From Datnioides undecimradiatus (lineage: Eukaryota; Chordata; Actinopteri; Lobotiformes; Datnioididae), in NCBI GenBank assembly GCA_008933995.1, contig WARS01000033.1, forward strand, positions 3,841,813 through 3,905,812: DNA of 64,000 bases. Direction: 5' to 3'. The position numbers were made by a program, and so were the translations under genes. Positions 1-45,600 of this stretch are shown piece after piece. The notes under the pieces were generated by a model. The model did no database searches, was not told where the DNA came from, and saw only the letters and a program-made list of their open reading frames with translations. How positions within the stretch are numbered: position 1 is the first letter of the stretch; the number at the start of each line of letters is the position of its first letter.

Positions 1-630
1 CGGTCCAGATTAATAAAGCTTTGTTTCATGTCAGGGCGCTGTCCTAATGTCACATCTAATGTTAAAGGCACAATCAGTAAACGTTTTTCATAATCAATTG
101 ATAGTTTGAGTAATTTCTCACACGAATATGTCAAATTCCTCAGCTGCAAGGATTTAATGTAATCTGAATACATTTTGAGGGTAAGTCGGACAAAACAAGA
201 TATTCATCTGCACCGCATTTGACTTTGAAAAAGTAACTGGCCGATGATGAGACTGATCATTTCGATCACCAGGCTTGAACTGGGCGACAGCTGACGAAGG
301 TCTGCCGATGCCGGGTTTGCACGGGCCTATTCTGTCAAGTCGGTCATCTGAGGAGAACAACATGCTGATGGAAAACAAATGTGTGCACGGTGACTACCTC
401 TGCTGCAGCTATGATCGACGGCACAGTGATGAAGTTACACCAGGAAAGAGCTCCTGAAGTGTTTTCTGTATTGTGTGACTGAGCCTGAAAGCCTTTTAGC
501 ATTAGCAGTGCAGAGATATTAGCAACGCCTCAAATAACATTAGAAAGAAAGAAAGAAAGCTAATATCTCCTCTTCTGATTTTAGTAAATGAACACTGAAC
601 CTAAGCAGAGCCATGAAGGTGATGCCTCAC

Positions 631-1147
631 CTGAAGGAGCAGTGGGTGCGGGAGGGCGACGCGCTCATCGGCTGCAGCCTGTTCTGTTGGAGCCACTGTT
701 CCCCGACGCTGACGGAGCGGCAGCGAGGCTTCGCCACCTGAGGACGCGCGACCACAGACTGGTTAGACGGCGGTGTTAAACGGAGGACGCGTCACACGCG
801 AAAATACATTTCTGTGGTGCAGAGAGAGCGAATAACAGACAGGCAGATAGATAGACGGACCCACCTGAGCGTTACTGTGGCCGGAGACGGAGGTGGAGGG
901 GGTCCAAGCCTGGCAGCCGGGGCTCCTGGAGGCCACAGATACCTGGACGGGGCTACAGGCCTGAGAGGAGCAGGAGAGAGGCGACAACACATGACGCATC
1001 ACGTATGTAGGACTTTCAGCTGGCTCAGAACATGTTTCATATGAATGTTTCAGTTCTGGCTGATCAGGATTTACCAAAATTCATCAAAAAAGGGGGAAAA
1101 CTTTTCAGTACTCAGTAGCTTTATTAAAGAATGTAAGCCAGTTAAAT

Positions 1148-1200
<53 letters not shown>

Positions 1201-4200
1201 AACTACAAATGATGGATCCTGAAGTCCAGTATCTCCATTTAGCTCTTTTTTGGTCTCCACCATCTCCTGAGTGCTTAGGTGCTTAAGGCTTTGCTACTCT
1301 CACAAGCTCATTCCTAGCTCTGTCTGACTTCTGATTGGTTCTGGACAGGTGGTTTTCACAGTGGTTAACCACAACCGAGCAGTCACGCGCTGTAAAACCA
1401 AAGCGGCGAGCTGGGACAAGCAATTTAAAAAAAAAAAAAAAAAAAAGCAGTGGAGCTGCTGGAACCCTGCAGGTTCTGGTGAGGACCCTCTGCACGGTTT
1501 GCTCAACTTTATCTCAAAGACGTCAGCATGAAAAGCCAAACAAGGAAGATACCAATATAACAGAGAGGGAGGAGGCTAATGCTACAACTGTAACAACCAC
1601 TAAGACATGAGAGCATATAATGCCCATGCTGGCCAACTCAGACTGGCTTCCTGTTCCACAAACACAACTCTAATGCACAATGTTCCTGACAGGAAACAAT
1701 GATTTTGTGCAGAACAGTTACAACAAATCAATTTATGACCTATGATTCTGGAACAAACAAGCAACAGCCGAAATGCCACGCACTGAATCATCTCTTCCCG
1801 AGACGTTTTTTCCCCAGTCCCTCTGTCCTGTTCTGGTTCCTCCTCCCTTCGCGGCCCCCAGCTCTCTGAAGAAAGCCCCTCCCGCTGGACCCCAACCACT
1901 CTGACCCACAGCGTAGATAGAGAAAAGTGGCTGAAAATGCTCTGATGCCCACAAGACCAAACACGATGGTGGCGCGCGTTCGCCGCGTTACACTGAGTGT
2001 GCCGAGAGCCGAGTAAAAAAAACAAAAACACGCCAGCGTGAGTTCAGCGCAGCGGTCGGGCATTTCAAGCCACGAGCAGCATGACACACACAGTAACCAC
2101 TGTTCCACCAGCGGCGCTGACCCACAATTCAACCCACACTCCTGCTTCAGCCGGACCCTGCCACACTTCTGCAAACGAGGGGCAAAACAGACACATATCC
2201 TAAACTCTGTATCACACCGAAAACGCCGCGATCATGCTTATTTATTAAGTCTGCGAGGAAGACTGCTCAGGGCGTCAGTAGGTGGGTGTAGATGTGTGCA
2301 CACAGAGTCCTCGCCGCCGTGCAACCACACAGGAAGGAGCCGTGTCGTGTTTTGGTGCCTCTCGCAGGCTGCTGAGAGTCGAGTCTCCTTGGGGGAGCGA
2401 GTGAGCCGACAGCTTACTCTCTCACTGTCACAAAGCATCCATTTACAGGCTCAGGCGGTGCAGGGTAAACGCAGGTCACCAGTGAAATGCGCCGCTTTGT
2501 GGTGCGTAATCAAAGCGGTGGCTCATTGGCTCGTTAGAGAGGTATCAGAGCGGGATGGGGGGGTGGGGGTGGGAGTGGGCTAAGGAGGACCACGACTGTG
2601 TAACATGAAACCCCCTGCATGGAAACTTCACTAACGTGCAGATGATGCTCGGCAGAGAAAGGGAGCCAGATACTGCCTCTTTCCATCTGCGGCCTGATTT
2701 CACGGGAAAGACGATGGAGTTTGGGCGACGGGGAAGCCGTGACGCTTGGAAGACCCGATTCCTGAATATTTAATAATTCATGCTAACAAGGGCCGTGCCG
2801 TCGGCTCTCCCCCCCCCCCCCCCCCCCCCCCCAAGACACGCAGCCTGCTTTCGGACGACAATGCAAATGCGGGGAAGTGGGACGCTTGAACGTGCCAAAA
2901 CTCAATTTGACCTCGACTAAGCTCTGATATTAGATGTATTTAAGCATCTTCTCAGAATAAACTCCAGCCTGTGAGCAGCATTAAACAGAATCCCCATTCA
3001 AACTGGGGCTGCTTTAATGATTTGACGGAGTTTCATCTGAGGCTCTATGGCTGGCATTCATACATAGTCTGGGGGAACCTATGATATGTTATTAGCCACA
3101 TCAGACTCATTACAAGATGCTAGAATATGATAACATCTTGCAGTTTTGTAAAAAAAACACTCTTCACACACTTTTCCTGCCAGGACACGACAGCAATCAC
3201 AGTCAGCAGGCCCCAAAACTCCTCAGGGACTGAAAGCGACGCTGCTGCACCCACCTGGTAGAGATGCTCCGAGTGGATCTGCCAGAAGCTGCTGGGGGCC
3301 GACTGGCTGAGCGGACTGGGCCTGCTTGGGCCGGGCCCGGAGCTGGAGTTGGACCTGGGCCTGTGAGCCGGGGGGATCTGGAGCTCCGAGGCCGGAGGAG
3401 AACCGCAGGAGCCCCAGCTGAGATGAGAAGACAAGGCCTGGCCCAGAGCCTGCTGGGATGGAGCTGGAGCTGGAGCGGAGCTGGCGTCCACGGGCTCACA
3501 GGAGATCTTGGTGTAGTAGAAGTCCTCCTCTCTCTGGGACTGATCCGACCCACTGCTGTGTGTTTGGCAGATGGAGGGACAGACCAGCGGACACAGAGTA
3601 AAAAGACTGAGTTGTTTGTTTGGACCGTTACTGAATGCAGCGCTCTGTGTGACCCAGATATGAAACCTGGAAAATGGCTCATCACTTCCTGTAACTCAGC
3701 CGGAGCTCCTCCACAACCTGAAAATTTTATCCCCTCTTGTTTTTTTAATGCACTTTTTCAGCTCGGAAATGCTCTGCAGGGCTAAACTGACTGCTTTTCA
3801 CTTCACCTCAGACTACAACAGAGGAGTCTGGAAACCTAGAGTGTCCGAATGACAACACCCCCGATACCCTCACCTCTGCAACAAAGACTCAATCAGTCCC
3901 TCATCTTCTAGAAACCACAGAACGAATAGGAACCTGCGGATTAACACATATATCGGCTAATATCGTAATATAAACCCTGAATGAAATGTGTATGACTGAA
4001 AACAGGCAGGGTGAAATCTAAATTCAGTCTATTGCATCAAAGCAAACTCACTGTCCCGAGAAAACAGGTTTTTGTGGAAAATTTCCCAAAGTAAGGGGCC
4101 GTAGGAAATTTATTTGGAAGAGACACAAACAAATATATACAACGCACTTTAATTCATCCATCCCTTGAAAGATTTAATGTGTAAACATTTAGTTCAGGTA

Positions 4201-6134
4201 TTGTTTAATTGAAATAAAAGGCTCTGCCGGGAGCCGCTGCGAGGCTCCTACGAGCCTTCATTTTAGCAGTTTAGTGTTTAATTTAAGAGTTCTCGGCTCC
4301 GAGCCATTAAAAGCTATTTGTTTTACAGCAAGAGATTGGATTGTGAATTAGAAACAAATAAATTGATTTTTAGTTTTGTTTGGAGAAACCAAAGGGGTCA
4401 CACAGTCCCTAAGTTACCAAGAAAGGATCATTCTGACGTCTGCGCTGAAACTCTGCAGCTGAGTTGACCGGTTTCATGCGACATGCTCCCCTAAGAGGAA
4501 TGCAACTGATTGTGCACGCAGGCGACAAGCATTCCAACTCACCGCAGATGCAGCACACGGATGTGTCTTTTTATCCCCACTGAAGACGTTAGCACCTTGC
4601 CGCAACTGGGCCACAGACACTTGTACACACCCCTGAAAGAGCTCTGTGGGAGGGAGGAGGCAGCACGGGTGAAGGACAGAAGGTAAAGAGAGACACACGA
4701 AAACACAGACTCATCTGGAACACACTGAGCCACGCACCTTTGGCTTTTTGGCATTGAGCTCCTCCCCGTGCTCCAGTTCAATATGTAGGCCCTCGTCAGG
4801 GCTGCTGTCCATCTCAGTGATGGAAGGCGAGGGGGCGGGACTCACATTGCCGTGGTCCCAGCTCCAGTAGCCACTGCTGCCGCTGTCGGAGAGCTCGCCG
4901 CCGCCGCACTCCATGTCAGCCGGCGACGTCGAGCCAGCTGGAACACAGGAAGAGTCAATGTCAGATTACAAAAAAACAACAACCTGGTGTTCCTTTAACA
5001 CGACTGAATGACCTATTTTTCTCCCAGTACCTTAAACGCCCCATCAGGTTCGATTTGTCCTAGCTGCCAGGGAGTGGGTGATCCCACAAACATCCCACAG
5101 ACAGAATATACCCTGTGTTTTAGATACAAACAGCTCTCTGGCCCTTTGTGGTTACAACAGACACTGAGCGCGTGGGACCGCTCTCTGCTGCTCTCCTCTC
5201 TGCCCGTCCTACAGAGCGCAGCAGGCGGCCCACACCGGTGCCAAGGTTGTGATGTGTCTCCTGACAGTTTACCGCGGGTCCGGCCTCTCCTCTCTCTTCC
5301 CTGTCTACTGATATCCCGCTGCTTTACTTTGCCTGAAAGTTATTTACTGTCTACCAAGGCAACTTTGATTGCACACAGGGAAGACAGACGCGGGAGATGC
5401 TTCTGCAACCACTACATCTACACCAGTCGGGTGTACATCTCACATATTTCCTGCGGTTCTAGTTTAACTTACAATACGTGGATCATTTGAGTTGTGCCAA
5501 ATCTACTTTTTTGTGAAGCTATCAGCCAGTTGTCGGGTTAATTTGGTTTCCTGTCGACAGCTTCATCACCCCCTTTGTGCGCGAGTCATTCTGCCAGAAT
5601 CTGTTATTAAATTACTTTTTCTATCCACTTTCCAATTAATCACTGTTTATAAAAAAGCTATTATATCGCTTCTCTCCCAACCAAAATATTAATGTTCTCA
5701 ACTGCAGACTCGATTTCTTTAAAGGCCCTTATTAATGACTTATTATGTGCATAAATGCAGCCCTTGTGGTTTAATTGGTGAGAAGTTTCTTACAGTTTAT
5801 TACTGAATTAACAACATATATAACTGCATTATTATCATGGGAATGATAGTTCACTGATGCATTAGTAATTGTTTTGTTTAGGATTAATAAATCCATAATT
5901 TACTGAATAAAGTGGTATTTCAAACAGCAGGGACACTGGTGAGGCCGTGTGCTCGTGAGGTGAGGCAGACCTGGTCCAGGATCAGTTTGTGGAGGACTCT
6001 GGACCACAGGGCTGCAGGACAGGCTGGTCAGAACCATGGCTGCCATGATCTCATCCATCTCCACTGACTCCGGACTGCGGAAACTGGAGGTCGGAGGAAG
6101 AGATGCTCTCAGACTCAGAATGGGATAAGCTTTA

Positions 6135-6177
<43 letters not shown>

Positions 6178-9270: not shown

Positions 9271-9937
9271 AGGTGAGGGGTTACCAGAGCAGAAGCAGCA
9301 GCAGCATCCTCTCTCTGTCTGCCTGTCTGCCTGCCCGCCTGCCTGTCTGTCTCTCTCTGTCTCAAGCGCATATAAATCTACGTGTTTGTTGGTGTTGATT
9401 GTTTGGATTCTGTCATTAATAAATAAAGGAATAACATGCAGCCTAAAATGAATGCACTGTAGCACAAAACGGACCCACATATCACAATAATAAGCAAATA
9501 TCAATGCAAATAAATTAGATATATTTTGATATAATACCAAAAAGCCCAACAAACAGCCATAAGGCCACACCATTCACAAAGAAGTGCCATAGCAATATCA
9601 TAGTCATTTTTTATTGAGGGTTATTGCTTGTATATGCAGTTTACGGCGGTGTTGTTATTAATCAGATGCAGAGATGCAGAGGAATATTGAAGTTAGTGGT
9701 TTGAGTTGCATTAATAAACACCAGATGAGTGATCAGGCAAACCATGCAGCATGCACCATTTTAATCAAATCGTGCAAAACTCATAAAAGTGCTGACACCT
9801 TGGTGCACAGGATATCAACCCCCAGCATCACATGATACATTCCGTGTATGGAGATCAAACACTACGTCCATGTGTGTTTCCAGTATGTGTGTGTGTGTGT
9901 GTGTGTGTGTGTTGCACAGCCAAGGCCTGTGTGTTTC

Positions 9938-9968
<31 letters not shown>

Positions 9969-10051
9969 CCGGATTAGTGTCGGCTGTCTGCACCCTCTCC
10001 ACCAGACATCTAGTCAGCAGGGATTTTAGGGTCTGAGCACCGACACAGTCA

Positions 10052-10085
<34 letters not shown>

Positions 10086-10529
10086 CCCAATCCTAGTCCC
10101 AATCTGATTCCTAAACCAGACAGAATTCCTTCGCTTCCAATTTCATTCACTAATGACACTATGTAAGCTTGGCAGACCTTGTGGCAACCGCCTCAACCGG
10201 TTAGACAGACTGGGATTGAAGTGATGAACAGGTAATGAATTTATCTGCACAGCAGGAGATAGCAAGTAAACATTCACACAAACTGCACAGTAGATCTGAA
10301 CGGGACATTAAAGCGTGGGTGTTAGTCATCTAATGTGTATTTATAAAGGGTAGTGGTCACAAGGCGAGTATTGATGCCAGTTTAGATGGGTGGTGTTTCC
10401 TACTGTTAGGGTGGATCCTTGAAATTGGCCATTGGCCAAATTTAGGTCATTTCAAAATGAGATGTCCCCCATTACAAATAATGACAGCTGCATTTTAGCA
10501 AGACAAAGAGAAGAAGATCGACAGGCACA

Positions 10530-11040
10530 CTAGAGGATGGAATAGCTAACATGCTTATGCATAGCAAGAGTAATGACCCATGTTAACTACCTCAGCTTGG
10601 TGTTTCAGCTAACATAATCAACACTTAAGTCAAAGTACAGCTGAGGCTCATAGCAGTGTTGTCAGTGTTGAATGTATTTAGTCAAAAACCAAATAATGTG
10701 GTGAATGTAATTTTCGGCTGAAGATGATGTAAATAAAATCACAGGATTAATAAAGTTCTATCTCTGGGGGCGTGAGAGCGTGCAGCAAACATTCACAACA
10801 GTCTAGATGACAGTAGCTGAGACATTTTGAGGGGAAAACCCCAAATTTTAACCTCATTTTACATAAAAAAACATTGCTTAAGCGGACGTCAGAGGCAAAT
10901 ACCGCAGCTCATCATCTGGGAACCATGATTTTGCAACATTTGACAGATATATCCTCTGAGGAAAATGATTGTCTGGTTAGAATCTCACATGAGTCCATCC
11001 CATGGTTGTTGAGCTAGTTCAGTCGAGCCAAAACAGTGAT
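10530..11040 (-). repeat. Interspersed teleost repeat, copy A (decayed)
   Basis: Contains caaagtacagctgaggct and, further on, catcatctgggaaccatg and ccatggttgttgagct. The same sequence words appear on the opposite strand at about 63430-63920. The pattern matches a repeat common in teleost genomes that I know by its sequence but cannot name with certainty. No transposase or reverse transcriptase is encoded. Confidence 0.6.
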
Positions 11041-13069
11041 CTTAGTGACAAACTTTGCATCTACCAGTTAATTACTGAAAACTGACTGGTAAAGAGGTAA
11101 CCTGGGTTTAATCCCTTTTAAATTTATAGGTCATAATGTTTGAAATGTCATCGCTTTAGTATGAAGGACCTAAAGGCCTCATGAAGTAGATGATAAGTAG
11201 ATGATGTAGCTACTTTCCAGTCCCATAGAAAGTTTCCAGTCCCATGTACAAGCCATCAGCCCTTCTTTAATGTTGTCAGGCCACAACTATACAGTTACTG
11301 TCTCCAGCCAACTGAATATGGTTTCTAAGTAGAAACTGGCCGATCAGTCATTTGGATATTGTGTAAGTGTATCACTGGCAGCTGAGCTCCCTGTGGGAGA
11401 ACAAGGCAGTGGAAACAGACTGGTGTTGGACAAAAGGGTTTGTCAGCAGCTGTGCTGAAGAACGAGGACTTTGGGCGGTGTCTACAGTCGTAGGCAGCAG
11501 AAGTGTTTCAGCTGCAGTGTGCAGGCTAACAGCTAAGGGTAAAATAGCTGAGTGAGTGGGCGTGTTGGTGTGAGGGCAGACAGAGGTGTGTTGATGTGTG
11601 CATAGCTGTGCGAGCAGTATGATCTGTGAATGTAGCTGTACAACTATCTTTTGATCAATCACAGCGAACGCTGATGAACTGTGGGTGGTTACTACCGGCA
11701 GTAAAATCAGACTGTTAAACCTGAGTGACAGATATACGCCCTCAAGAAGTGAAGGAACATCAGATCAACACTTTTTTTTATGTTAACATTGTTACAGGAA
11801 TGTTAATCAAACATATTAATGGCTGAGATACTAGACTTATATACACTGGACCTTTAAAACCACTATTTTTTAAATCTTTGTCTTTAAAATACAATTTGAA
11901 TGTCTACTACACAGTCAGAGTTATTTAGTTAAAGATCAACACTCAAAAACTAGCTATTCTTCTTCATTAGCTCAATACTTACGTAGTTTGAGAAGATTGA
12001 AAGTGGCCAAACAAGACATCTATTGTCCTCGAAGGTGGACAGAAATGTTGTTGAATCCTGAGAGGTGGACTGAAAAACCACCATTGTCCCGCCCACTTCA
12101 AAACCAGTGAGAGTCAGACAACAGCAGAAGTACATACACCTAAAAACTCCCAAACTCAAACAGAAACTTTTGTGTCAATGTGAGATCATAATGCTCATAA
12201 AGACGCAAGAGAAAAATAGATTTTCAAGGACTTTAATGTACAGCGGGCAAGAGAGGCGATATCACTGCAATCAGTGTCGTCTCAGCTGGGTGTGTTCTAT
12301 TTGGACAGCTCAGTGGATTAATATGGCAATGCGTGGTATGACAGGTGGCATTACAAGAATGACAACTCCACCCTGCTTTGAGGTTTTGCGACCTTTGGTT
12401 CACTTTGAACTCTCGGTAGGCTCCGGCGCCACTCCCATCTCTCCACAATCAACCAGGATACGGTGGAAGGACAAACAGACCCATAAGTATTATGAATGAC
12501 TTTAGAATAAAGGTAATGCTGCAGCATCTGCCCCAGCTGACCAAACCAGGTACTGTTCAGCATTGTCTGACAAACATAGGAAGAATTACAAAGGAACCAA
12601 TGCAAACAGAAAGTCCATCCCTTCATGTATATTCAAAGTGCACCGAAGCTTAGAAAAATCCCCTTGTCTCACAACACAAACAGTACACATCCAAAAGTCA
12701 CTTCCTCTATTATCGCATCCAGCACAACAATGTGTTAGCACCTTTGATCCCCTACATCAGAAACACAAAGAAATCCCATTTTTGGCAACCACTTTGCTAA
12801 ATAACGCCATTGTGTTTTAGAGTTTTGCATTTTTCTCAACATTTCCATCAGTCAAGTAACAAATCAGACTCCTCACCCGCTTTGTTGGGACATGAACTGA
12901 CAATCAGTCTGATCAGGTTTCAAGAATCTGCTCATTCATTTTCGTAAGAGACATGAGTGGAAACCGGTTGCTGCCAGGTGGCCAATAATATGTTAGTTTT
13001 GAAATTTGAAAATGGCTGACAAAAACATTTTAAAAACAGCGACATTATGTGAAACACGCTTTTTAACTT

Positions 13070-13300
13070 TCTTGCCAAAAGTAAGATGAGAGAACTGATA
13101 CTACTCTTGTTGAATATGAAACTACAGCCAGCAGCTAGTTTGCTTAGCTTAGCACAATCACTGGAAAAGGGGAAACAGGTAGCCTGGCTCTGTCCAGGGG
13201 AAAAAAACGTCTCCTAGCAGACGAACTAACACGTTATATGATGATTGTTTATAATGAAACTGAAGTAAAAGGGGAATGTTTTGTATTTTACAGGGAAGAT
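13070..13300 (+). repeat. TTAGC-type interspersed repeat, copy 1
   Basis: Carries cttgccaaaagtaagatgag, then ctacagccagcagct, gcttagcttagca, ggggaaacaggtagcctggc and tctgtccaggg. The order of words is the same as in the copies at 15080-15290 and 49170-49440. Non-autonomous element, no coding capacity. Confidence 0.7.
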
Positions 13301-14373
13301 GTGACAGACAGACACGAGATAAACAGTGAGCTTTGAAGGTAGTTGGGATGTGACTTATTTACCTTCAGACAGAGTTTAACTAAAGTGTTACCCCCACTTC
13401 TGGTCTTTGTCTTGAGCTAAGCTAAGCTAACAGACACTTATGAAAGCGATGTTGATCCTATCGTCTAATTCCTCACAAGAAATCCCATAAATGCATTTCA
13501 CAAAACAAGTAAACAAGATCCGTATTAAACAGGTTGAAAGTTTTACTTTAATAGTCCTTAAACTGCTGTCCTCCACTGAATGCTATTTAGAAAAGAGCTT
13601 CATGACAATTACAGAATATGATCAGCTCCCTGTACTGGCTTCATTTAATAGTGGGAAGTGATACTCTACTAGCCTCGCCTGCAGTCTGTCCAATCAGCAC
13701 AGGAAAAAACCCCCAACATGAGTTAGTGACAATCAGACGTAATGAGTCATGTGACCAGTCTAACCCCTACCCTACCTCAAAAACTGGACAGGTAAGCTTC
13801 AAATCAACACTTCCTCTCTACTCCAAAATACCTGCCAAGATCAAATCAACACAGCTGAACACTGGCACTTGCTGCTTTCAAGACTTTGAAACTGATGATC
13901 GCTTTAGGTATTGTTTTCAAGCCAATTTTCCAAGGTTTTTGGGAATGATCAGTTTAGTTCCTGGGTAGGTAATGGCGGAAAAGAACAGTAAACGCATACC
14001 GATAACAAACTCTGCAAAAAACACAACATGAAATAAGCTAGTAGGTTGAAAGTCTTCATGTAAGAATTTCTTGTCGGATTAATTCTGATGCCATAAATGA
14101 GGCGGGGGGGGTAGAAAAGAGGGGTTGTTCTTTAAAGACTGCATCCAGATAAGTGAAGTCCACTGTGAAGACAAGGTGTGGATGGTGGCTCAGGCTGGCA
14201 GAGGACACGACCAACTTTCCCTCCTACCATTCCTCTTTTTTCTGTCCATTAAGTGTGAAAAATGGAAGGTCTGCGCAACTGGATGGTTTGTCCTTCTTGC
14301 CAACAAATTTGGGAACTTTTTGGGAACGTTTCTCATGCGGCTGTGGCGACTGTTCGGGAGTGTAAGTGGCTGG

Positions 14374-17300
14374 TTAGTTGGTTAAGGCGTGAGGTCTCTC
14401 CAGTGTGCTGGGAGTTTGCGGCATGTTTCTGTGGTCCCTCCAGTTTATACTTCCTTGGTCTGGAAATTCAAAAGAGAACATGTAAGTGAATGGCAAACGT
14501 TTGATTGAAAATTTGCCTCCATTTGCAGAGAACTCACCGCCGCCACCTGCTGACTTTGTGCCAGTGGTCCCCTTGGTTCCTCCTAATCCGTCACTCTACC
14601 ACAGAGGAAGATAAAAAGGCTCGTAAGGTCAGGAAGGACACAGTGCTGATGAGTGAATCTGGTCAAGTTGTGCGAGGCAAACAACCTCACTGTGAATAAA
14701 CTGAAATCAACTGGTTATGTAATAGGTTATTTCATTTCTTCATTCCAGCTGTGAAATGGTATCCCCTCTTTCTGTCACTATCACTTCTTTTTTGAGCTTT
14801 TCAATCTTTAAAGAGTGTCCTTTGCACATTTTAAAAACAATCTTTCTTTCTTAACTTACTTATTATTATATCTAGGCTGCTTAACACTGTCTTTTATGCA
14901 TGAGCATTTTAAATTTGACTCGCAGTTTTAAGGTTGACTCAGCCTGTCTTTGTGTGGGTTGGTTTTCGTTTTAACTGGCTTTGCTAAACTGTTCTATATT
15001 AAGTTTTTATGTTATTTACGCTCCTGCACCCAATTTACAATGTGTTTTTCTGCTGCAAATAGTAAATGCACTGACGCTGACTCTGATGTATATACAGTAT
15101 ATATGTTCATATGGTCAATGTGGAGCTGCAGCCAGCAATCGGTTAGCTTAGCTCAGCATAAAGACTTGAATTAAGAGGAAATAGATGACCTGGGTCTGCC
15201 CAAAGGTGACAAAATCTACCTGCCAGTGTCTCCAAAGTTAACTAACATGCTGTTGTGTATTTATAGTAACAATGTCCTGTAGCGTTATTACGCTGACCAA
15301 TCTCACTCCTCCTGTCTAAACCTAGTACTGGCACCGCACAGTAAAAGAGCTTCTATACAAGCCAAATATCTGCATTCAAAACTTAACTTGTATGTATGTG
15401 TAGAATGCTAGCATTGTAATCAAAATGTGCTTCAAGTATCAAGTAGTGAGTATTTTAATATTATATTAATATGTATATATATAATATTCCTGCTACATTC
15501 ATGTGCATGTTCCTGCTTTAGACGGTTATGGCTGAGCTTATGTCAAGTCTGAAGCATGGTTGTCCTGTGATAAGCATGCATGTCTATAAATCAAACCTTT
15601 CCTGAGAGATACAAACCATTTTCAAACTTTGTGACAATTTATTTTCCATTTAATCCGAAAGGGTTCTCTGCACTCTATTGTAAGGTATTAAGGGTGTGCC
15701 AAATTCTACTCTGGAAACTAACGAGTAATAAAATCTGTCTGACAAATACAATAGCGTAGAAAGGTCAATACTTGCCTCCTGAAATTACATTTCATGGAAA
15801 TAAAAGTATCTTTGTACTGTGTAGTACTAAGGTAGGTATAGTTAGTGACACCACTGCTGTTGTTGGCATTGTAAGAAAATATATATTATATTACACACAC
15901 TGTGTACAACTGGTGAAAAAAGCTTATTGGGAATATTGTGGAATTTGCCGTACGTGCGATGTGTTTTAATGCCAGCCTCTCAAAGTGAGGCTCTCGGATA
16001 TAATGCAGCTCGGGCAAAACAGCAAAACAACTACTACACAACAGCTACGGGGTTTTTTCATTGTGCTCAGTTTCCTCCTTCCACGCTTGGGGTGGTTTCA
16101 TGGAAGTGAAGTTAACCCATCAAGGGTGACAGCGCATGAGAAAGAGTTGGCGCTATGTCAAAGTGGGCGGGACGACTCCACGCTTCCTGCATGAGGGTGA
16201 GGAGCTACAGTTTGTAGCTTCAAGTAGGTGTCTTGTGATATTGATTAGAGGCTGATGTTCATCATACTAATGAGACTAATGGTCATGATGCACCACAATA
16301 TCCTGACAAAATTCTTTTTAATGTTCTTTGAGACATTGTCATTGATGGTCTAATCTATTTTCATTTGTCTCGTGGGTTTGCATAGCTTCGATCTAATGAG
16401 GCCAACAGCAGCTACGGTATCAAAGCCTACGCCGTTCATCTGCTGATTGCGGATAGCCAACCACGTATCGCTCCTAACTGGCAGCTAATGAACCGCAACA
16501 GATAATCCACGCTACATTTAGATGTGGAAGGTGCTGCAGTATGAACGGAGTGAAGTGTTTAGTGACAGACTGGGAGACTGAGAGAGAGGGCGGGGAGGAA
16601 CTGCAAATGCAGAAAAAGGACAACGAAAAGCAGGTAGATCTTACCGTTGTGCCACTCACATCATACGCGTTGCCAGATTTCCTGTGGGTGACAACAAAGA
16701 AAATTAGATTGAATTATCTTATTAGGTCTTAAAATGTTATGGTGGTATGCCATATCCATATGTACAGGGACAAAGGGTGCGTAGAGTCCTATTTAAATAC
16801 GTAGGTTTGATTTATGGCTCGAGATCTTTAAAACTTGGTCCGTCTAGCACCTGTTTGGTGCTTGACTCTTTTCCAAGTTTGTATCCTTATTGTCTTTATC
16901 ATCCTGGTTCACACACACACAGACACACACACACACACACCATGTCCTTTAGTCACAGTCCCCTGCTCTCCTTCCAAAAAGGCTTTCTGTCATAATGACC
17001 ATCGTGCTGCTCTCAGCACTCTCCGGTCCTGCCTCACTGCACCTTTCAACAATCCAGCGCAGTATACAGTAAATTTCTCTTAATACTTAAACTTAGTTGG
17101 ATTTGATTAGTCCTAATAGACCCGACTGGCTCATTTGAGCTCGGGCTGAACTTCAACTGCTTGGAAGGCCAAACTGTCATTAGCAAACTGTATATAAGTG
17201 ATATCAGGCTTGAGTCAAGCTCTCTAACCTAAAAAGGTTCAGAAAATGCTGAACTCACCGTTGTCCCAAATTGAGCTGACAAAGGTTATTATATTGTATT

Positions 17301-18574
17301 CTGGACAGAGCCATTGGTATAATTAACAACATTCATCAGGCCTTGATTTGATAAGACTTTAGGTTTAACTTGGGACTTGACATGACTTGAGTCTAGACCT
17401 GGACTTGCCTTGGCTTTGATAGGACTTCAGAATGAATTTGGAACATGTGACGTGACTTGATTTAAGATTTGACTTGACCTGGGATTTGTCGCACCTGTAA
17501 GACTTACTCAGACTTGTGCATTTATAATAATGAATCCCTCCCTTTCTCAGAAAAATATAATACATAGAGTTTTCTGCTGAGCTTGTGTGATCAACTGGAG
17601 ATTTATCTCTGGACTCACTTTGACAAGACTATTAATCAAACAGCTGCCACCACAAAGTCTCCCTTGTGTTCTTCCTTGATGCAACACCTTTAGCCTTCAC
17701 CTTGTCAGCACACACTAGCACAGGTGTGTTCCCCTTCTGCAAATATATATCATTTTCTGAGTTACGATTCCCATCTATCACTACAGTCTCATTCCGGCGT
17801 CATTCCACTGAGTGACAAGCAAGCCTTGGAATGTGCAGAAACCGAGTGCACAAGATAAGACTATTGTCTCAGCCAACAGTACCTCCGTGTCACTGTCTCT
17901 GGTATGTTTGGTGTGACAGCCCCACTAATGGGCATACAAATATGCACGTGGATGTGTATGAAAACACCTACATATGCACACACACACACACAAAAATCTA
18001 CCATCAGGCTATGGAAGTTTAAAGGTCCAAGCCCAGCCCCTTCAGCTCAACTACCTCATCCTTAAAACAATATTTTCCGATTATATATCTCGGCCTCCTT
18101 CTCTTCAAACAGGCAACACCCTTCATCAAAAACGACCCATCGAGTCCAACAAGTCTCTGCTGAGCAGTGATGAATAGCAATTAAAGCCTTGAAAGTTGGT
18201 AGACGGGAAAATGATTCAGCCAGCGTATTGTGAGCAGCCACTGCAAACAAGAGAGGACTTGTTCTGGGTGCCACGGTTGGTCACGATTACTCATACATTC
18301 GGTGACACAGCTCTTAATAACTTGTGACGGCATTCGGGAGCGCAAATGATCAAAGGTCAGATATTTCAGGGGAAAAGAGAGTTTAAAAGACGTGGCTCAA
18401 CACAAATCTACCGAAAAGAACGGCGCTTTGCATCAGCACGTTCCCTCACCTGTGACACCTGGCGCACAGGGCAACGAGAATGATGCTGAGGACGAGGAAG
18501 ACGATGAGGGAGACGATGCCCACCTCCGGGGATGAAAACCAACCCAGCGTGTCAACCATCCCTAGTGGAGCCAT
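14374..18574 (-). CDS. LAT/LIME/PAG-like transmembrane adaptor (partial model)
   Basis: Minus-strand exons: 18574-18450 (exon starts 18586), 16681-16645, 14595-14538, 14459-14374. Every border is a good GT/AG site. Each exon is open in the phase handed on by the previous one; exon 3 is open in that phase only. The frame ends at TAA 14376-14374, giving 101 residues. Residues 1-18 (MAPLGMVDTLGWFSSPEV) precede one membrane span at about 19-36, then CARCHR and SGNAYDVSGTTSDGL. This resembles the LAT membrane-proximal region (CVHCHR, SYDSTSSDSL), with a palmitoylation-type CxxC next to the membrane. The Grb2-binding YxN motifs of this class are not in the model. After the TAA the same frame stays open for 49 more codons. 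The gene may be truncated or decayed, or have unrecognised exons. Exons 1 and 2 are well supported, 3 and 4 moderately. Family assignment is inference. Confidence 0.5.
15080..15290 (+). repeat. TTAGC-type interspersed repeat, copy 2
   Basis: Lies in an intron of the adaptor-like gene. Contains gagctgcagccagcaatcgg, ttagcttagctcagcataaa and gacctgggtctgcccaaagg, in the family order. Confidence 0.7.
16911..16940. repeat. (CA)n microsatellite
   Basis: Interrupted CA repeat in an intron of the adaptor-like gene. A shorter one lies at about 17977-17991. Confidence 0.9.
17345..17520. repeat. Degenerate GACTTG tandem repeat
   Basis: Roughly a dozen imperfect copies of a GACTTG/GGACTT unit occur within 175 bases (gggacttgacatgacttgag, acctggacttgccttgg, gtgacttgatttaag). 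It reads as an eroded minisatellite with no coding content. Confidence 0.7.
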
Positions 18575-18586
18575 TGTCCAAGTGCT

Positions 18587-19301
18587 CTGCAAAGGACAGC
18601 AAAAGCTGCTTCAAACGTATCGACATAGCAACCAAGCATCGTTCACAAATAACCAAAATGTGTTTCCTAAAATTATGTAAAATCATGAGAAAGTTCCCAC
18701 GACACATTTCAGGTGAATTTCAGTTTCTGCATGAAATACAATCCTGATAGCATCCAGCGAACATATTGAATCTCACATGTTAAACTCCAACCTGTCTCGA
18801 AATAACGATCTATGACGAAACACAATTAACAAAAAAATAATTAAAGCTCTTAACTCACGTTGTGTGCTGCTTGACACCACTGTAGCTCTGTCAAAAACTG
18901 TTCTCAGTCATTCAACTGCCTTCGCTTTATGAGGCTCACAGCAGGCAGGCAGACGACTTAGGGAGGGACTCTGTTCATTGGTGTCCTGTCTGTTATGAAG
19001 GAGGTGCTGACAGAAACCCATAAACAGCCCATTGTGTTATTTATCTCAGCTAAATTACATCCGCACCTGACATGCCTGTGGCTTCCAGGAATGTCGGAAT
19101 GCGTGTTTTAGCCCCTAAAAGACTGAAACTTGACAACATAGATGTGGAAAATATACATATTTATAAAACAATACAAGACAGATGTTTTGAACTTTTACTG
19201 AGAATACTCCGGGTGTGCGAGCTGAACCAGCCGTTGATGTTAAATCATGTGTGCGCTGTAGCTGCCTGCCAAGGAAAAGCTGATTAGGCAAAGACAGACA
19301 G

Positions 19302-19332
<31 letters not shown>

Positions 19333-20561
19333 TGCTTTCATACAACACCTCCCTCTAGCAGCAGTTTACATGACTGCAGAATGCTGACACGTCATCTCAG
19401 GCCTCCGCGAGCTCATACTCCAATCTTTACTCATTTTGAACGTGCCGTCATTTCTGTAGTGGCGGATTCCTGAGCTATGACTTTTATAGTATTCATCACA
19501 TTCTCTCTCCAACATGTGTTTTATGTATTATTTCCACTCATAAAAGCACAAAATAACCCTACATTTATATTTACATTTATTTATATTCCACATGATTGTA
19601 GATATATGATTAATATCTGGTAAATTACAGTAGAAAAAAACACTGCTGTGTCAGTATTCACCAGTTTCTCCTTTATGACCTAGAGCTAAAACTACTGAAA
19701 TCATACTGATAAGGGACCTATTAAAAATGGAAGGATCACTGCTTTACTGATCAGGTCCAGTCATGAAAGTAAAAGCTGAAGAAAATGCTAAAGTTAGCCG
19801 TATCGTCATCTGAGTGCTCAGATGAACAGTTGGTGTGCTAATAAATGTAGCAACCTGGAAAACCTGAAAACAAATAGACATACCAGCGCACCGACAGGAT
19901 ATACTCTGTCCGTTGGTGGCATACCGATGCGAGGTGAAAACTTGCGAGTGTGCCTGTTGTGCGCCTGTTTCCAGCCACACCTGCGAAATAATGCTATCAG
20001 CCTTTTTTTTTTCTTTTTGACTGCTTGGTCAGTGGAATTACCCCATGCAGTGCCAAGGGAGCAGGTCGATTATGTGATTCAGCGTTCACACTTTATTAAA
20101 GTCACCAGACATCTTTCGTACACTTTCCATCTGCTGTTTCCCTCCACAAAAACCTGTCTTTAATTGCATTTTTGGTATATGTTTGTAAGATTTTGCTTTA
20201 TGTATGCTTTTAAAACAAAATATGTTAATTAAAAAGAACCTTTACAGCTCACTAATAAATATACTATATGCCCTTTCTTTTATCTGTACCATAAAACTAG
20301 CTGTTCCTTCCAGAGCTTAGTGTTAAACAATGCTAACTGTCTCCTGGCATCAGCTTCAAATGTAACGCACATACATAATATTAGTACTGATCTTCCCATA
20401 TAACTCTCTGGAAAAAGGTGAGTAAGGAGTATTTCTCAAAATGTAACTATCCTTTTAATGACATAATTGCTGTGAAATATAGTTTTGGAGATGCAGAGAC
20501 ACACTGGAAGGTAGCAAAGGCAGAGGGAGAATTGCACTGATTTACCCGCGGCTCACATGTC

Positions 20562-20592
<31 letters not shown>

Positions 20593-22101
20593 CACACCGC
20601 AAACACATCTCTTTGTTAGTGATGACAGCGACACCAAGTAACACCCACGCCCATTACTCGCTTAACAGACCCATTCTGTCATAATCGTCCTCTGAAGCCC
20701 TGCAGAACAGGCAATCTGTAGCTCTGAGCAATTTTCATTTGTTTCCTTTCTGGGATCCGTGTGAGATTTGCTCAGAGGCACAAAGCAAAATCAATAGCTA
20801 CACTTTCACAGCAGGGTGAAAAGGAAGCCTGTGGGAATCATGGCCAATTTCAAATATTTGCAACATAATCCTGAAAGCACAGTTTGCTCATATAGGAATG
20901 AACCCAGCTAACAAATAATCTCTATTTGTGTGCAAATTGAAAAAATAATAACCTTCCTGATGCTTGCTGAGTTTAACCCTGCAGAGGGAAGCGGGCCCGC
21001 TGCATGAATCCATCAGTGCTACCACAGGCTTCGCTCACACGCGCGCTGCTCTGCTGCTTGTTTTCATTCACACTATCACAAATATCAGATCAGTTACAAT
21101 CAGATATTATACATACATATATATAGTCATACAGTCGCAGTTCTAAACGTTTATTTAGGTTTCAACTCTTCTGACCAAAGAGTGGCACACCACTCACACA
21201 TTTCAGATTAAATCACTGTCCAGTTAAACCTCAAGACAAAACTCTGAAAGTCACTGTGGTCATCCAGCACACAACTTCTGTTTGACTGAATAAATAAGAC
21301 ACGCAATGTTCATTAATGAGTTTTTTTCTTTTTGTTTATTTGTTTTGTTTAAGACCATTATTAGCGTAATGTACCATACACATTAGCCTAAATGTGTAAC
21401 TATTCCTTTAAAACGAGGCCTGAACTGTGACCCACGCACTGATACTGGGCCATCCTGAATCTTGTCCGGAGGGAATTTCCTTTTCATATTAGAGACAAAA
21501 GGTGTGGCTACCAGCTTAATGAAAAATAAAAAAACCCCAAAACAAAACTGAAATACAATCTGCATCTGCAAACAATGAACAGGCTAAACCTCAGAGTCAC
21601 GCTGACAGCAGCCTAGTTTGCTCCACACGAACAAACAGGGTCAACAAGAAATATCTGAGTTTAACATTAGCATCTAGACACACTTGATTTACTTCATAGC
21701 TGCTCTAAATATTTAGTATTTCCCAAGGATTCGCAATTTTTTCCATTTTCCTCTAGATTCTATTCATGTAGCTTTTCATGTTAATTGTTACATAGTGCTC
21801 GCCCTTGCTGGGTGTCTGGCTTGTGTACAATCTACTAAATATAAGATAACCAAGATTTCATGTGCTGCAACATCTGCCAATCACACTGCTTCAATTTGTA
21901 AAGAATTAGCTTTTTTTTGGATATTTGAAACTCCTTCTTAAGAGAACAGAGGAGGACAGCTTAACCAATAGTGTTGGACTCAACCATTGACCACATCTTG
22001 AGAGTCGTATGAGTTTTAGATTGGGCAGAGGAATAACAGAAACTATAACTGGTACCTCTTACCCCTGCAGGGCAGTGTTGCCCCTCAATATCATTTCAAA
22101 A

Positions 22102-22135
<34 letters not shown>

Positions 22136-22800
22136 ACACTTCACAGTAACTGGATCTGCTGAGGGATTTGACCCATGCGGAAGACTGTTCTGCCAACTTC
22201 CCTCCATGTGCACTCTATCCCCCTGCCTCAGTATTAAACTAGCCTCTTTGTTCGCCCCAAATCCCACTATCTGGCTAGTCCACTTCGGTGAATGCTGTAA
22301 TCCAGATTTGGACTCCGTCTTTCAGTGTTGACGCCGCTGCTCGCCTCACAGAGCAGAGAGCCTCTGTGGCGAACAGGAATGTCAAATATAAAACTTGAGA
22401 CGCAGGTTTGGAGCAGCAGTATGTCCACAACAGGACAGTAAACAGACTTTGGATACCAACTGCTTTATGTCTGTATCAGAAGAGGTAAAAGAGTTTGAAA
22501 ATTCATCTTTTTTATAAATATTTAAACTATTTGTGTTTATTTTTCCAACATTTTTACTAAAGTTAGAAACCGAAAGGCATGTAGACATTATTAGCTTTAC
22601 TCCTGGTTTGTTTCAGACCAGTGTCCCTCATCAGAACAGACTACGTCATCAGCAACAATTAAACTGGAGGATGATTCACTGTGGAAAACTTTACTGAGCC
22701 ATAGTTAGCAAACTATGGGGTCCACTGAGCCAGCTATTGCTATTGTTGAATCAGCAGTTAAACCCTTAGGACATTTCAGGTGACCTGGTAATTGTTGTAG
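18587..22800. other. Intergenic, adaptor-like gene to paqr8
   Basis: No coding exon is supported. It should contain the 5' end of the adaptor-like gene, since its first coding exon is preceded by an acceptor (cctttgcag at 18595-18587), but no upstream exon could be fixed. It also holds CA repeats at about 19303-19327, 20563-20591 and 22102-22133, and an inverted TTAGC-type repeat copy at about 20285-20450. Confidence 0.45.
20285..20450 (-). repeat. TTAGC-type interspersed repeat, inverted copy
   Basis: On the minus strand it reads gatagttacattttgagaaa, then gttacatttgaagctgatgc, caggagacagttagca and ctctggaaggaac. These words follow the family order but are diverged. Confidence 0.5.
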
Positions 22801-22902
22801 ACAAGAGGCTGTTTCACATCGTTTTATTGTTTAAATACTTTAAGTAATCACATTGTTCACAGACAAACCGATTTGTGTTGAAGAAAAACATATAAAGATT
22901 GC

Positions 22903-42604: not shown

Positions 42605-45600
42605 AAGATGGATAGAAAGTGAATGGAATAGTTGCAATAGTTCTTGCTAATAGTTCTTTTACTATCTGAGAGTCTGATGAGAACATTGATGTGAAACAAT
42701 TAGCCTAGCTTAACAAAAAGACTGGAAACAAGACTTGGAAACAAGTTAGCAGCTGGGACTAATATATGAATGTTGCTGAATGTATGCTAATGTAGTTTCA
42801 AGTGTTCATTTTTATCAAAAGTTTGGTTTAAACAAGTTGTTCAATGCTATGAAAAGCTACTCTGAAGCCATGATGCTTACAGCTCATGTATTCTCATGAT
42901 TCATTCAGGTACAGTAGGTCAGTCAGTCTTTCATGATAAGCAGTTTGTGCTCTCGGCCCATACTTTTCTCATCATAAACATAAGCATATTTCTGAAAATG
43001 TGGACCATCCTTCGTAGTTTCTTGATCACACCACTCGTACGCAGCAGCCCAGCGGGAAAAATAAGACTTTTTTTTTTACTAAATCTGGCTGAATCACATT
43101 GTAGAACTCATGATTAATGTGTCCCACAAACAGGTTAAGCTCCCACTAATGAAGACTGAGTTACAGCACACAATAGATGTAACTGGAGAAGACATGTAGA
43201 AATTGAGATAACAAACATTTTCTATTTTAAAATCCATGTGTTTGAGAACACTGCAACCAGCCCTGAATGGACAGTACCTTCTCCTGCAGCCTCTCCAGCA
43301 TGGCTGCCAGCAGGGCCTCCCTGTTCTCCTTGTTGGCCTCCATCTTCTGCTCAAGCTTTTCCTTGGCGTGCTTGATGAAGTTGTTGTTCTCCTCGAAAGC
43401 CTTCTGGATGACCTCCCGCTCGTGCTCCCGCTTCTCTGCCAGGTGCTTCAGCAGCTCAGCCTCCTGGCACTAGAGGGAGACAGAGAGCAGCAAAGATGAA
43501 CCAACAGGCAGTTTTCACTCTTGTAAAGCTACAAATGGGAAAGAGAGCATTAGCTTGGGGATCACGGGGCAGCATATGCATCAGGGGAGGAGAGCCTGAA
43601 GACCTGACATGCACCATTAACAGATGGTCACATGTAGGGTTAAGGTTATGGCTGTGGCTTTGAATGGTTTTGCCATCAGTGTGAGTCCTGCACACAAAAT
43701 CCATTTTTACAGATATTCACACTCCTACCACATGTCAGGAAATGCAAATATTAAAAAGGTGAGCGGTTAGGATCTAAAAGAAACCCAGTGACCCCTTGCT
43801 GAAAGTGTGTGTGTGTGTAAAGTTATGTTCTTGTTTACATGTCTCCTGGGTGTGTGCATTTCTGTGATTTACGGTGGGCGTGACCAACGCCCTAGGAAAT
43901 ACTTAAATAAATAAGTAATCTACATTACGGCTGACTGTTTTCCACAGAAGGCCATTATGTTTTTCACTTGTGCGTTTGTGTGACCACACAACAGGCACGA
44001 TCATGTGGACCTTTAAAGTTTCAACCCATAAGCATTTCACTCATTAATATTCATGACTAAGTAAGGTCTATCAAAGATTAAAAAGCATTGTTGGGTGTTA
44101 TTTATCAGGTAATTAACAGTCCAAAACAAAAAACAAAAACTATGAATGAACAATCATTAACTCTTTTGATGTGAGGTATTAAATTGAAATATCCAAGTAA
44201 AAAGGCAGTTTTTAAAGAAAGAAACATGGCTTCTGTCGTGTGAATTATGTCAAAGAAGAAACAAGAGTGAATTATTTATAACCAGAGCTTTCACACTGAG
44301 ATTTGAGACACATAAGATGCACGAATATCCACTGCCAGTGTCATAAACAGCTAAACGACGCTGGTGACAGTTACTACTGATGGATAGTAGCTTGAGTGGG
44401 AGGCTGCTGGAGTTGAGTCAGCGTAGCAGCATCGGTAAACACGGCTGTTGTCTCCAACTGAATCTCAGCCGAGCCTGGACCAAAGAGCTGGTTGGTTATT
44501 TTGAGGCAGCACTTTGCATGATGCATGATGATTTGATCAAACGTGCAGATGTCCTGAAATATAATGTCTGGCCACTGTGTTGGATCATTGACCCCCTGGG
44601 ACGGGGGAGACTGAAAGACCATGAAACTTGGATTCAGGCAAAGCTGCAAGATTACTCTGAGACACGTCCATAAAACAAAGTCAAGCACAGATCTAACTGC
44701 GCTGACATCACAATCTGTTTCAAATGCTGTGGAATCTAATTGGTGCACGGATGCGCACGACATCGTCTTCTTCAATCTGAGCCTTGCCCACCTCAGACCA
44801 GTCAAACTGAGAGAAACCCCTGAACCTGTCATGTTAAAGTGCTAAAAGCAGAAAACTGTTTTCAGGGCCTTTAAAGGACCTAATAAACAATTTTATTAAT
44901 GGAAACATTTGATGTCGCAGGTGTCTGGTGACTGCTCTGTAGCTGTTCCCTCTCTGTGCCAGCTATTGAATCTATCTCCTCTCACCTTTCCCCTATCCCT
45001 CCGTCCCCCCTCTCTCCACCATCCTCTCCACTTGATGAATATGAGCCATTGTGAGTGTGTCCTTGCATGATTGCCCTTGCACTTTCATGTTCCTCTTTTC
45101 ATCTTCCTTACCCTCCCTCTGCTCGTGCTTCCTCCCTTCCTTTCCATCAACTCCATCTTTCCTTTTATCCATTTCCACCCTTTTTCTCCCAAGTTGATAA
45201 ATCACGCTGCCCACAAAGAGTGTTGTCAGATGTTTGACAAAGCCTGAATGAGCTACAAACAGCTGGGCTATGGGTTACAGCTTTGAGCGAGGGCCTGTCC
45301 AGTTTGGTTTCTCGTGTTGATGCAAAAACCCCCGCCCTCTCCGCCCTCACCTTCCGCCTCTCCTCTGCGGCCTCCAGCTTCTTCTGGATCTCCTCCAGGG
45401 ACGGGTCGCGGCGCTGCGGCATGGAGGTGTTGAGGTCTGGCACGCCGTCAAAGGACGGGGGCTTGAGGATGACCTCGAAGGCCTGGCCTGATGCCCGCTT
45501 GTTCAGCTCGATTACCTCCACATCTTTGATGACGCACCAGCCCAAGTCCACCGCATCTGTGGTGTTGGATTGTGGCCATGTTTAGATTATCCATGCTGTT

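Follow-up and report, generated by a model that had tools for sequence, protein, structure and literature searches.

A PAG1/LIME1-like adaptor gene upstream of znf395 in Datnioides undecimradiatus and its probable origin in a duplicated adaptor-zinc finger pair

Introduction

Transmembrane adaptor proteins (TRAPs) have little outside the cell, cross the membrane once and carry several tyrosines on a long tail; LAT, LIME, NTAL and PAG add a palmitoylated C-x-x-C motif (PMC2803307). Kiwi LAT is reported to lie next to SPNS1, as in human, and zebrafish LAT to keep its phosphotyrosine motifs (PMC10079008). Here we describe an adaptor-like gene beside znf395 in a 64,000-nucleotide stretch of the fish Datnioides undecimradiatus (GenBank assembly GCA_008933995.1, contig WARS01000033.1, positions 3,841,813 to 3,905,812; the whole stretch is called the window), and compare it with three other adaptor loci of the same genome. 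We consider it likely that this is a real gene and the znf395-side member of the PAG1/LIME1 adaptors, and that an ancestral adaptor-ZNF pair, with a stathmin gene nearby, was duplicated to give rise to it.

Among the open-access papers listed for adaptor evolution, fish TRAPs and PAG1/LIME1 as duplicates, none dealt in its title or the opening of its abstract with this gene, or with PAG1 and LIME1 as whole-genome duplicates. In human, LIME1 stands before SLC2A4RG and PAG1 before ZNF704.

Results

A four-exon adaptor gene

An initial annotation of the window had noted, beside a znf395-like gene and on its strand, exons encoding a membrane span, CARCHR and AYDVSGTTSDGL. All of these are found within a single minus-strand frame of 101 amino acids, whose coding sequence runs from 18574 to 14374 through four exons and across three introns with GT-AG borders in phases 2, 0 and 1. 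The predicted protein is MAPLGMVDTLGWFSSPEVGIVSLIVFLVLSIILVALCARCHRKSGNAYDVSGTTSDGLGGTKGTTGTKSAGGGDQGSINWRDHRNMPQTPSTLERPHALTN, followed by the stop TAA, and its gene is composed as follows.

18450..18574, minus strand: coding part of exon A, with ATG at 18574-18572, short N-terminus, span and C-x-x-C; donor gtgaggga
18467..18523, minus strand: predicted membrane span VGIVSLIVFLVLSIILVAL, residues 18-36, mean Kyte-Doolittle value 3.19
18455..18466, minus strand: CARC, a juxtamembrane C-x-x-C read from the sequence, residues 37-40
16645..16681, minus strand: exon B, (R)KSGNAYDVSGTT, entered in phase 2 and left in phase 0
14538..14595, minus strand: exon C, SDGLGGTKGTTGTKSAGGG, entered in phase 0 and left in phase 1
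14374..14459, minus strand: exon D, DQGSINWRDHRNMPQTPSTLERPHALTN and stop TAA (14376-14374), terminal exon by the model
14224..14373, minus strand: frame beyond the TAA, open for 49 codons; its coding score is reached by 16% of background and is not significant

Exon A ends in phase 2, within the Arg codon of CARCHR. The short N-terminus of 17 residues and the single 19-residue span agree with the TRAP layout, and CARC has the form of the palmitoylation-type motif of LAT, LIME, NTAL and PAG. The tail departs from that layout, as the 61 residues past CARC contain one tyrosine (Y48, codon 16665-16663 in exon B, context AYDVS). Since an acceptor-like tgtcctttgcag ends 12 bases ahead of the ATG (at 18587), a non-coding first exon is likely, and exon A probably begins at the next base, 18586. 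The interval originally marked, 14374-18586, thus coincides exactly with this model, being bounded by the TAA and by the base that follows the acceptor. As znf395 is also on the minus strand and at lower coordinates, the adaptor lies upstream of it, rather than following it as had been stated.

Codon-usage scores were trained on 1334 codons of this genome, with open intergenic DNA as background. Only 1.3% of the background scores as high as exon A, and 2.3% as high as exon C, which is of low complexity. Exon D is likely the last exon. An extra last exon at 14162-14057 (VDFTYLDAVFKEQPLF...), with a good acceptor and matching phase, was rejected on a coding score equal to that of intergenic DNA (57% of the background as high). 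By eye, degenerate repeats of CTTGA/TCAAG units occupy about 17340-17510 in intron 1.

One adaptor at each znf395-family locus

The comparison is internal to the 581 Mb assembly of this one species, in which the window lies on contig C478. A znf395 probe gave seven matches at four loci, namely the window and one each on contigs C495, C480 and C469, and 60-70 kb were read at each of the latter three. Every one of the four loci found has one adaptor, upstream of the zinc-finger gene and on its strand: the C480 adaptor is paired with znf704, that on C469 with an slc2a4rg-like gene, and that on C495 with another znf395 copy, near which a second stmn4-like gene is also present. All four adaptors open alike, with a span, a C-x-x-C and introns 1-3 in phases 2, 0 and 1. 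The distance from the adaptor ATG to the MDEIMAAMVLTSL-type exon of the zinc-finger gene is ~12.5 kb in the window, 13.7 kb on C495, 36.2 kb on C469 and 48.3 kb on C480.

A strict signature requires an ATG, a hydrophobic 19-mer and C-x-x-C, with one or two further residues before a GT donor that splits the next codon in phase 2; low-complexity spans are dropped by rule. It has exactly four matches in the 508,000 strand-bases of these regions, one per locus, each upstream on the zinc-finger strand. First-order Markov sequence of the same four regions gave one match in 83,058,000 bases. A looser scan for a span followed by cysteines returned 30 candidates in the four regions, mostly CV-type repeats; it recovered the window adaptor exon and those on C495 and C469, and missed the pag1 exon on C480, which was found by the PAG profile.

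Identity and kinship of the adaptors

By curated Pfam profile, the C480 adaptor (exons 1-4) is PAG at 162.4 bits, with five stretches at this locus over the PAG cut-off. The C469 adaptor is LIME1, with 42.5 bits where the cut-off is 27, and its model (C469:8282548-8272681) has 502 amino acids, seven exons and 11 tyrosines. It also matches PAG over its span, below cut-off (E 1.7e-5), and ends in a PAG-like tail, ENFYETISDV, resembling that of human PAG1. The LIME1 identity together with the sub-cut-off PAG match and this tail supports an origin of PAG1 and LIME1 by duplication of a single gene. The C495 adaptor has 225 amino acids in six exons, with a weaker donor after exon 1 (gtcagc) than in the other three adaptors. 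Its two tyrosines, Y133 and Y180, stand in DHIYHVI and NSVYAQI, both of the Y-x-x-I type. Tyrosines in this context are commonly read by SH2 domains.

Kinship was measured with local alignments against 1000 shuffles that keep the composition of span and flanks, using the whole window protein and 105, 133 and 169 amino acids of the C495, lime1 and pag1 proteins, respectively (approximately the first four exons of each adaptor). The window protein and the C495 adaptor score 77 against a shuffle mean of 29.1, a score that none of the shuffles reaches; exon A is 38% identical between the two. The scores of the window protein with lime1 (60, reached by one shuffle in 1000) and pag1 (46, by three in 1000), and that of lime1 with pag1 (72, by none), are also significant. 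Altogether, five of the six adaptor pairs do better than one in 100 shuffles, the exception being C495 with pag1. The alignment places HRNMPQTP of exon D beside GRQLPQIP in lime1 and GRELPSIPP in pag1, a correspondence seen by eye only.

Zinc-finger and stathmin genes

In a tree of the four zinc-finger genes, built from joined conserved blocks, the window and C495 genes group together with support 100/100, and in a tree of seven stathmin rows the window stmn4 and its C495 counterpart group with support 98/97. The first stathmin exon of C495 is the closest to that of the window (76% identity, against 60-65% for five others). Among the 13 stathmin matches, there are some on the contigs of three of the four blocks (C478, C480 and C495). 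A TPD52 match is present on C480 only. The sister adaptor on C495 stands with a second znf395 and a stmn4-like gene, and the adaptor therefore predates that duplication. Within this genome, the proposal that a ZNF-adaptor-stathmin block was duplicated is well supported in that order, strand and phases agree at all four loci; the stathmin part does not extend to C469.

The second stathmin-domain exon of the C495 stmn4-like gene (L018:8271-8432) is shortened and divergent, and lacks the EENNNF stretch; this gene may be decaying. Another stathmin, which looks like stmn3, is at C315:21109791-21111583, away from the lime1-slc2a4rg block (C469, around 8.24-8.29 Mb).

Neighbouring genes in the window

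The window contains stmn4, as first annotated, on the same strand as the adaptor and znf395.

630..6175, minus strand: znf395 exons recognised in the window, with the MDEIMAAMVLTSL exon near 6064 and the zinc finger near 4622
near 3530 and near 719, minus strand: further znf395 exons, with EEDFYY and RSVSVGEQWL
43266-45524, minus strand: stathmin-domain exons of stmn4 (C478:3885078-3885281 and 3887154-3887336), the third element of the block

The last exon of znf395, encoding the C-clamp, starts 277 bases past the left edge of the window, and the list of znf395 exons may be incomplete on the 5' side. A minus-strand open frame at 24113-22968 is presumably of paqr8 type, and a plus-strand gene from 26953 is presumably mcm3.

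Discussion

The simplest account of these loci is an old adaptor-zinc finger-stathmin block that multiplied at an early stage of vertebrate history, after which the znf395 block underwent one further copying. An ancestral pair, in which an adaptor preceded a zinc-finger gene of the same strand and a stathmin lay close by, would have been duplicated with the vertebrate genome, its copies in this fish being pag1-znf704, lime1-slc2a4rg-like and adaptor-znf395, the last of which would have been duplicated again to give the window and C495 loci. The last copying of the znf395 block would be that of the teleost duplication. The window adaptor had been proposed as the missing fourth member of the paralogon; counted by the ZNF genes, it takes the third position, and the fourth locus, C495, is a duplicate of it. 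A loss of the adaptor beside ZNF395 in tetrapods, also suggested by the initial annotation, would be an additional conjecture.

Several results weigh against this reading. The window and C495 proteins reach no Pfam family cut-off, and neither has a Pfam PAG (PF15347) or LIME1 (PF15332) match at E up to 10. The C495 adaptor aligns weakly with lime1 (score 46, reached by nine of 1000 shuffles) and not significantly with pag1 (33, by 137 of 1000). Among the stathmin rows, the window stmn4 is most identical to C31 (72%) and not to C495, the path lengths from the window to C495 and to C31 tie at 0.48, and in the second stathmin-domain exon it is C495 that resembles the window least, at 57% where the others reach 62-77%, which we attribute to the shortening of the C495 copy. 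None of the 13 stathmin matches is on C469, where the three-gene block is incomplete. The strict signature was drawn up with all four genes already in view; its background in real sequence is the 508 kb alone, which has no other match. Exons B and D, both short, have coding scores that are not significant (20% and 18.5% of the background as high, respectively), and the window copy has one tyrosine only.

Gene structure, position and kinship are read from the data here, whereas the dates of the duplications, the topology, palmitoylation, partners and any immune role are inferences. The protein probably has its short N-terminus outside and a palmitoylated CARC, and would gather in the ordered membrane patches in which Src-family kinases act. 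On the C495 copy, YHVI and YAQI could dock SH2 partners such as Csk or a phosphatase, in the manner of PAG1 and LIME1, which would make it a small scaffold of the PAG1/LIME1 type. With its one tyrosine and its stop in exon 4, the window copy may be a minimal or decaying adaptor. Full adaptor function finds no support in this structure: given the weak context of its tyrosine, it would most likely serve as a minimal anchor, or at most as a competitor for membrane sites or kinase, and not as a scaffold. We entertain, tentatively, a wider scenario in which fishes have retained a third, unrecognised PAG1/LIME1 branch next to znf395 from the early vertebrate genome duplications onward, its two copies splitting the work after the teleost duplication, with docking by the C495 type and competition for the same membrane patches by a tyrosine-poor stub, both remaining linked to znf395.

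Among the alternatives, the one that survives best is that the window gene is a decaying copy, in which the stop in exon 4 severed the tyrosine exons and left the function to the C495 copy. We regard this as possible, although doubtful. The loss of a tail fits the stop in exon D with a frame open for 49 codons beyond it, and the single tyrosine and the coding scores of exons B and D point in the same direction. C495 exons 5-6 have no counterpart in window positions 9300-22900 at E < 0.001; when the C495, lime1 and pag1 proteins were compared with this interval, only exon A fell below E 0.001 among the matches listed. A match at chance level (E 2.6) pairs a stretch of pag1 with the frame beyond the TAA. 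Yet exons A and C score as coding, and the start codon, splice sites and three phases are intact over 4.2 kb despite the 38% identity of exon A to C495, which speaks for use until recently at least.

A later duplication of pag1 or lime1 confined to fishes, in place of a whole-genome duplication, is an unlikely source of the adaptor beside znf395. In its favour, a single genome is the basis here, and the window protein aligns better with lime1 than the C495 adaptor does (one against nine of 1000 shuffles). But four loci with paralogous zinc-finger genes share the same order, strand and phases, with stathmins on three of the four contigs, and an independent jump would need to reproduce that arrangement.

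Of the LAT/LIME/PAG kinship first suggested, the part that stands is that with PAG1 and LIME1, by locus, phases and alignment, and we think it quite improbable that the window gene is the fish LAT itself. LAT is the best Pfam match of the window protein (E 0.041, or 0.022 for exons A-C alone), and its CHR..G..YD...SD.L resembles human LAT. This match, at 14.1 bits, is below the cut-off of 27 and only just ahead of the unrelated Cadherin_C_2 (13.3 bits). In NCBIfam the sole match was SecG, below cut-off (E 0.03), and the single PDB match (E 0.24) is at chance level. The single tyrosine also differs from the motifs kept in zebrafish LAT (PMC10079008). The tie of locus and phases to C495, lime1 and pag1 would not be expected of LAT. 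The spns1 matches that score highest fall elsewhere in the assembly, on C215 (C215:129127-129518) and, with equal scores, C218 (C218:129019-129410), and four lower-scoring spns matches on C478 are 2 Mb from the window, so that the window gene lacks the SPNS1 neighbour of LAT. On the side of LAT, its profile found no other place above cut-off over this genome, with weak matches on C464 (E 6.3) and C490 (E 8.1), and no span followed by C-x-x-C was flagged at spns1 in the 6 kb behind the gene plus two overlapping 3 kb loci. The exclusion of LAT is incomplete because the lat gene of this fish was not found. A search with the LAT2 profile found nothing, a result that does not show absence.

The C490 place has no open frame with a span and C-x-x-C, and was discarded. 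At C464:2298698-2298781 (L016:1513-1600), CLYC comes after 14 hydrophobic residues that are themselves directly preceded by a stop, and there is neither an in-frame start codon nor a phase-2 donor behind; this was taken as likely chance. The C215 and C218 spns1 exon matches have the same scores, lengths and spacing at nearly the same offset, and are probably two haplotypes of one region. Open frames inside the spns1 locus (L049:2515-3122) resemble the end of a retrotransposon reverse transcriptase.

That the window exons are chance open frames resembling an adaptor, as the short protein, the low-complexity exon C, the lack of a Pfam match over cut-off and the 30 mostly repeat-type candidates of the looser scan might suggest, is very improbable in view of one strict-signature match per 83 Mb of simulated DNA against one at each of the four loci, and of the significant alignments to C495 and lime1.

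If the duplicated adaptor-zinc finger pair holds in other fishes, PAG1 and LIME1 would both descend by duplication from a single ancestral adaptor, linked to a zinc-finger gene ever since the early vertebrates, and the znf395-linked genes would form a third, unnamed branch of these adaptors, with one adaptor copy having been overlooked. Such a history would explain where some of the adaptors that tune Src-family kinases in lymphocytes came from, and would offer a way to examine which features, in this case tyrosines, a raft adaptor can do without and still be kept.

Among known systems, LAT shares with the window protein a short N-terminus, one span and C-x-x-C-H-R. In contrast to the window gene, LAT has several phosphotyrosine motifs and an SPNS1 neighbour (PMC10079008). 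The C495 adaptor has a span exon that can be aligned with that of the window gene (WF..P, LSI.L.ALC..C.R), and differs in having six exons with YHVI and YAQI, while the window gene stops in exon 4. PAG1/Cbp on C480 has a tyrosine-rich tail and the PAG match of 162 bits, neither of which is found in the window gene; the two are alike in lying upstream of a znf gene (znf704) on its strand, with a stathmin on the contig and introns in phases 2-0-1, and PAG1/Cbp has one span, CASCQG and a GRELPSIPP motif. LIME1 on C469 is far longer than the window protein (502 amino acids and 11 tyrosines, against 101 and one). Like the window gene, it is upstream of a zinc-finger family gene (slc2a4rg-like) on the same strand and has one span and introns in phases 2-0-1; its CVGCQR is followed by RKS after the cysteines, as in the window protein, and its GRQLPQIP stands beside HRNMPQTP.

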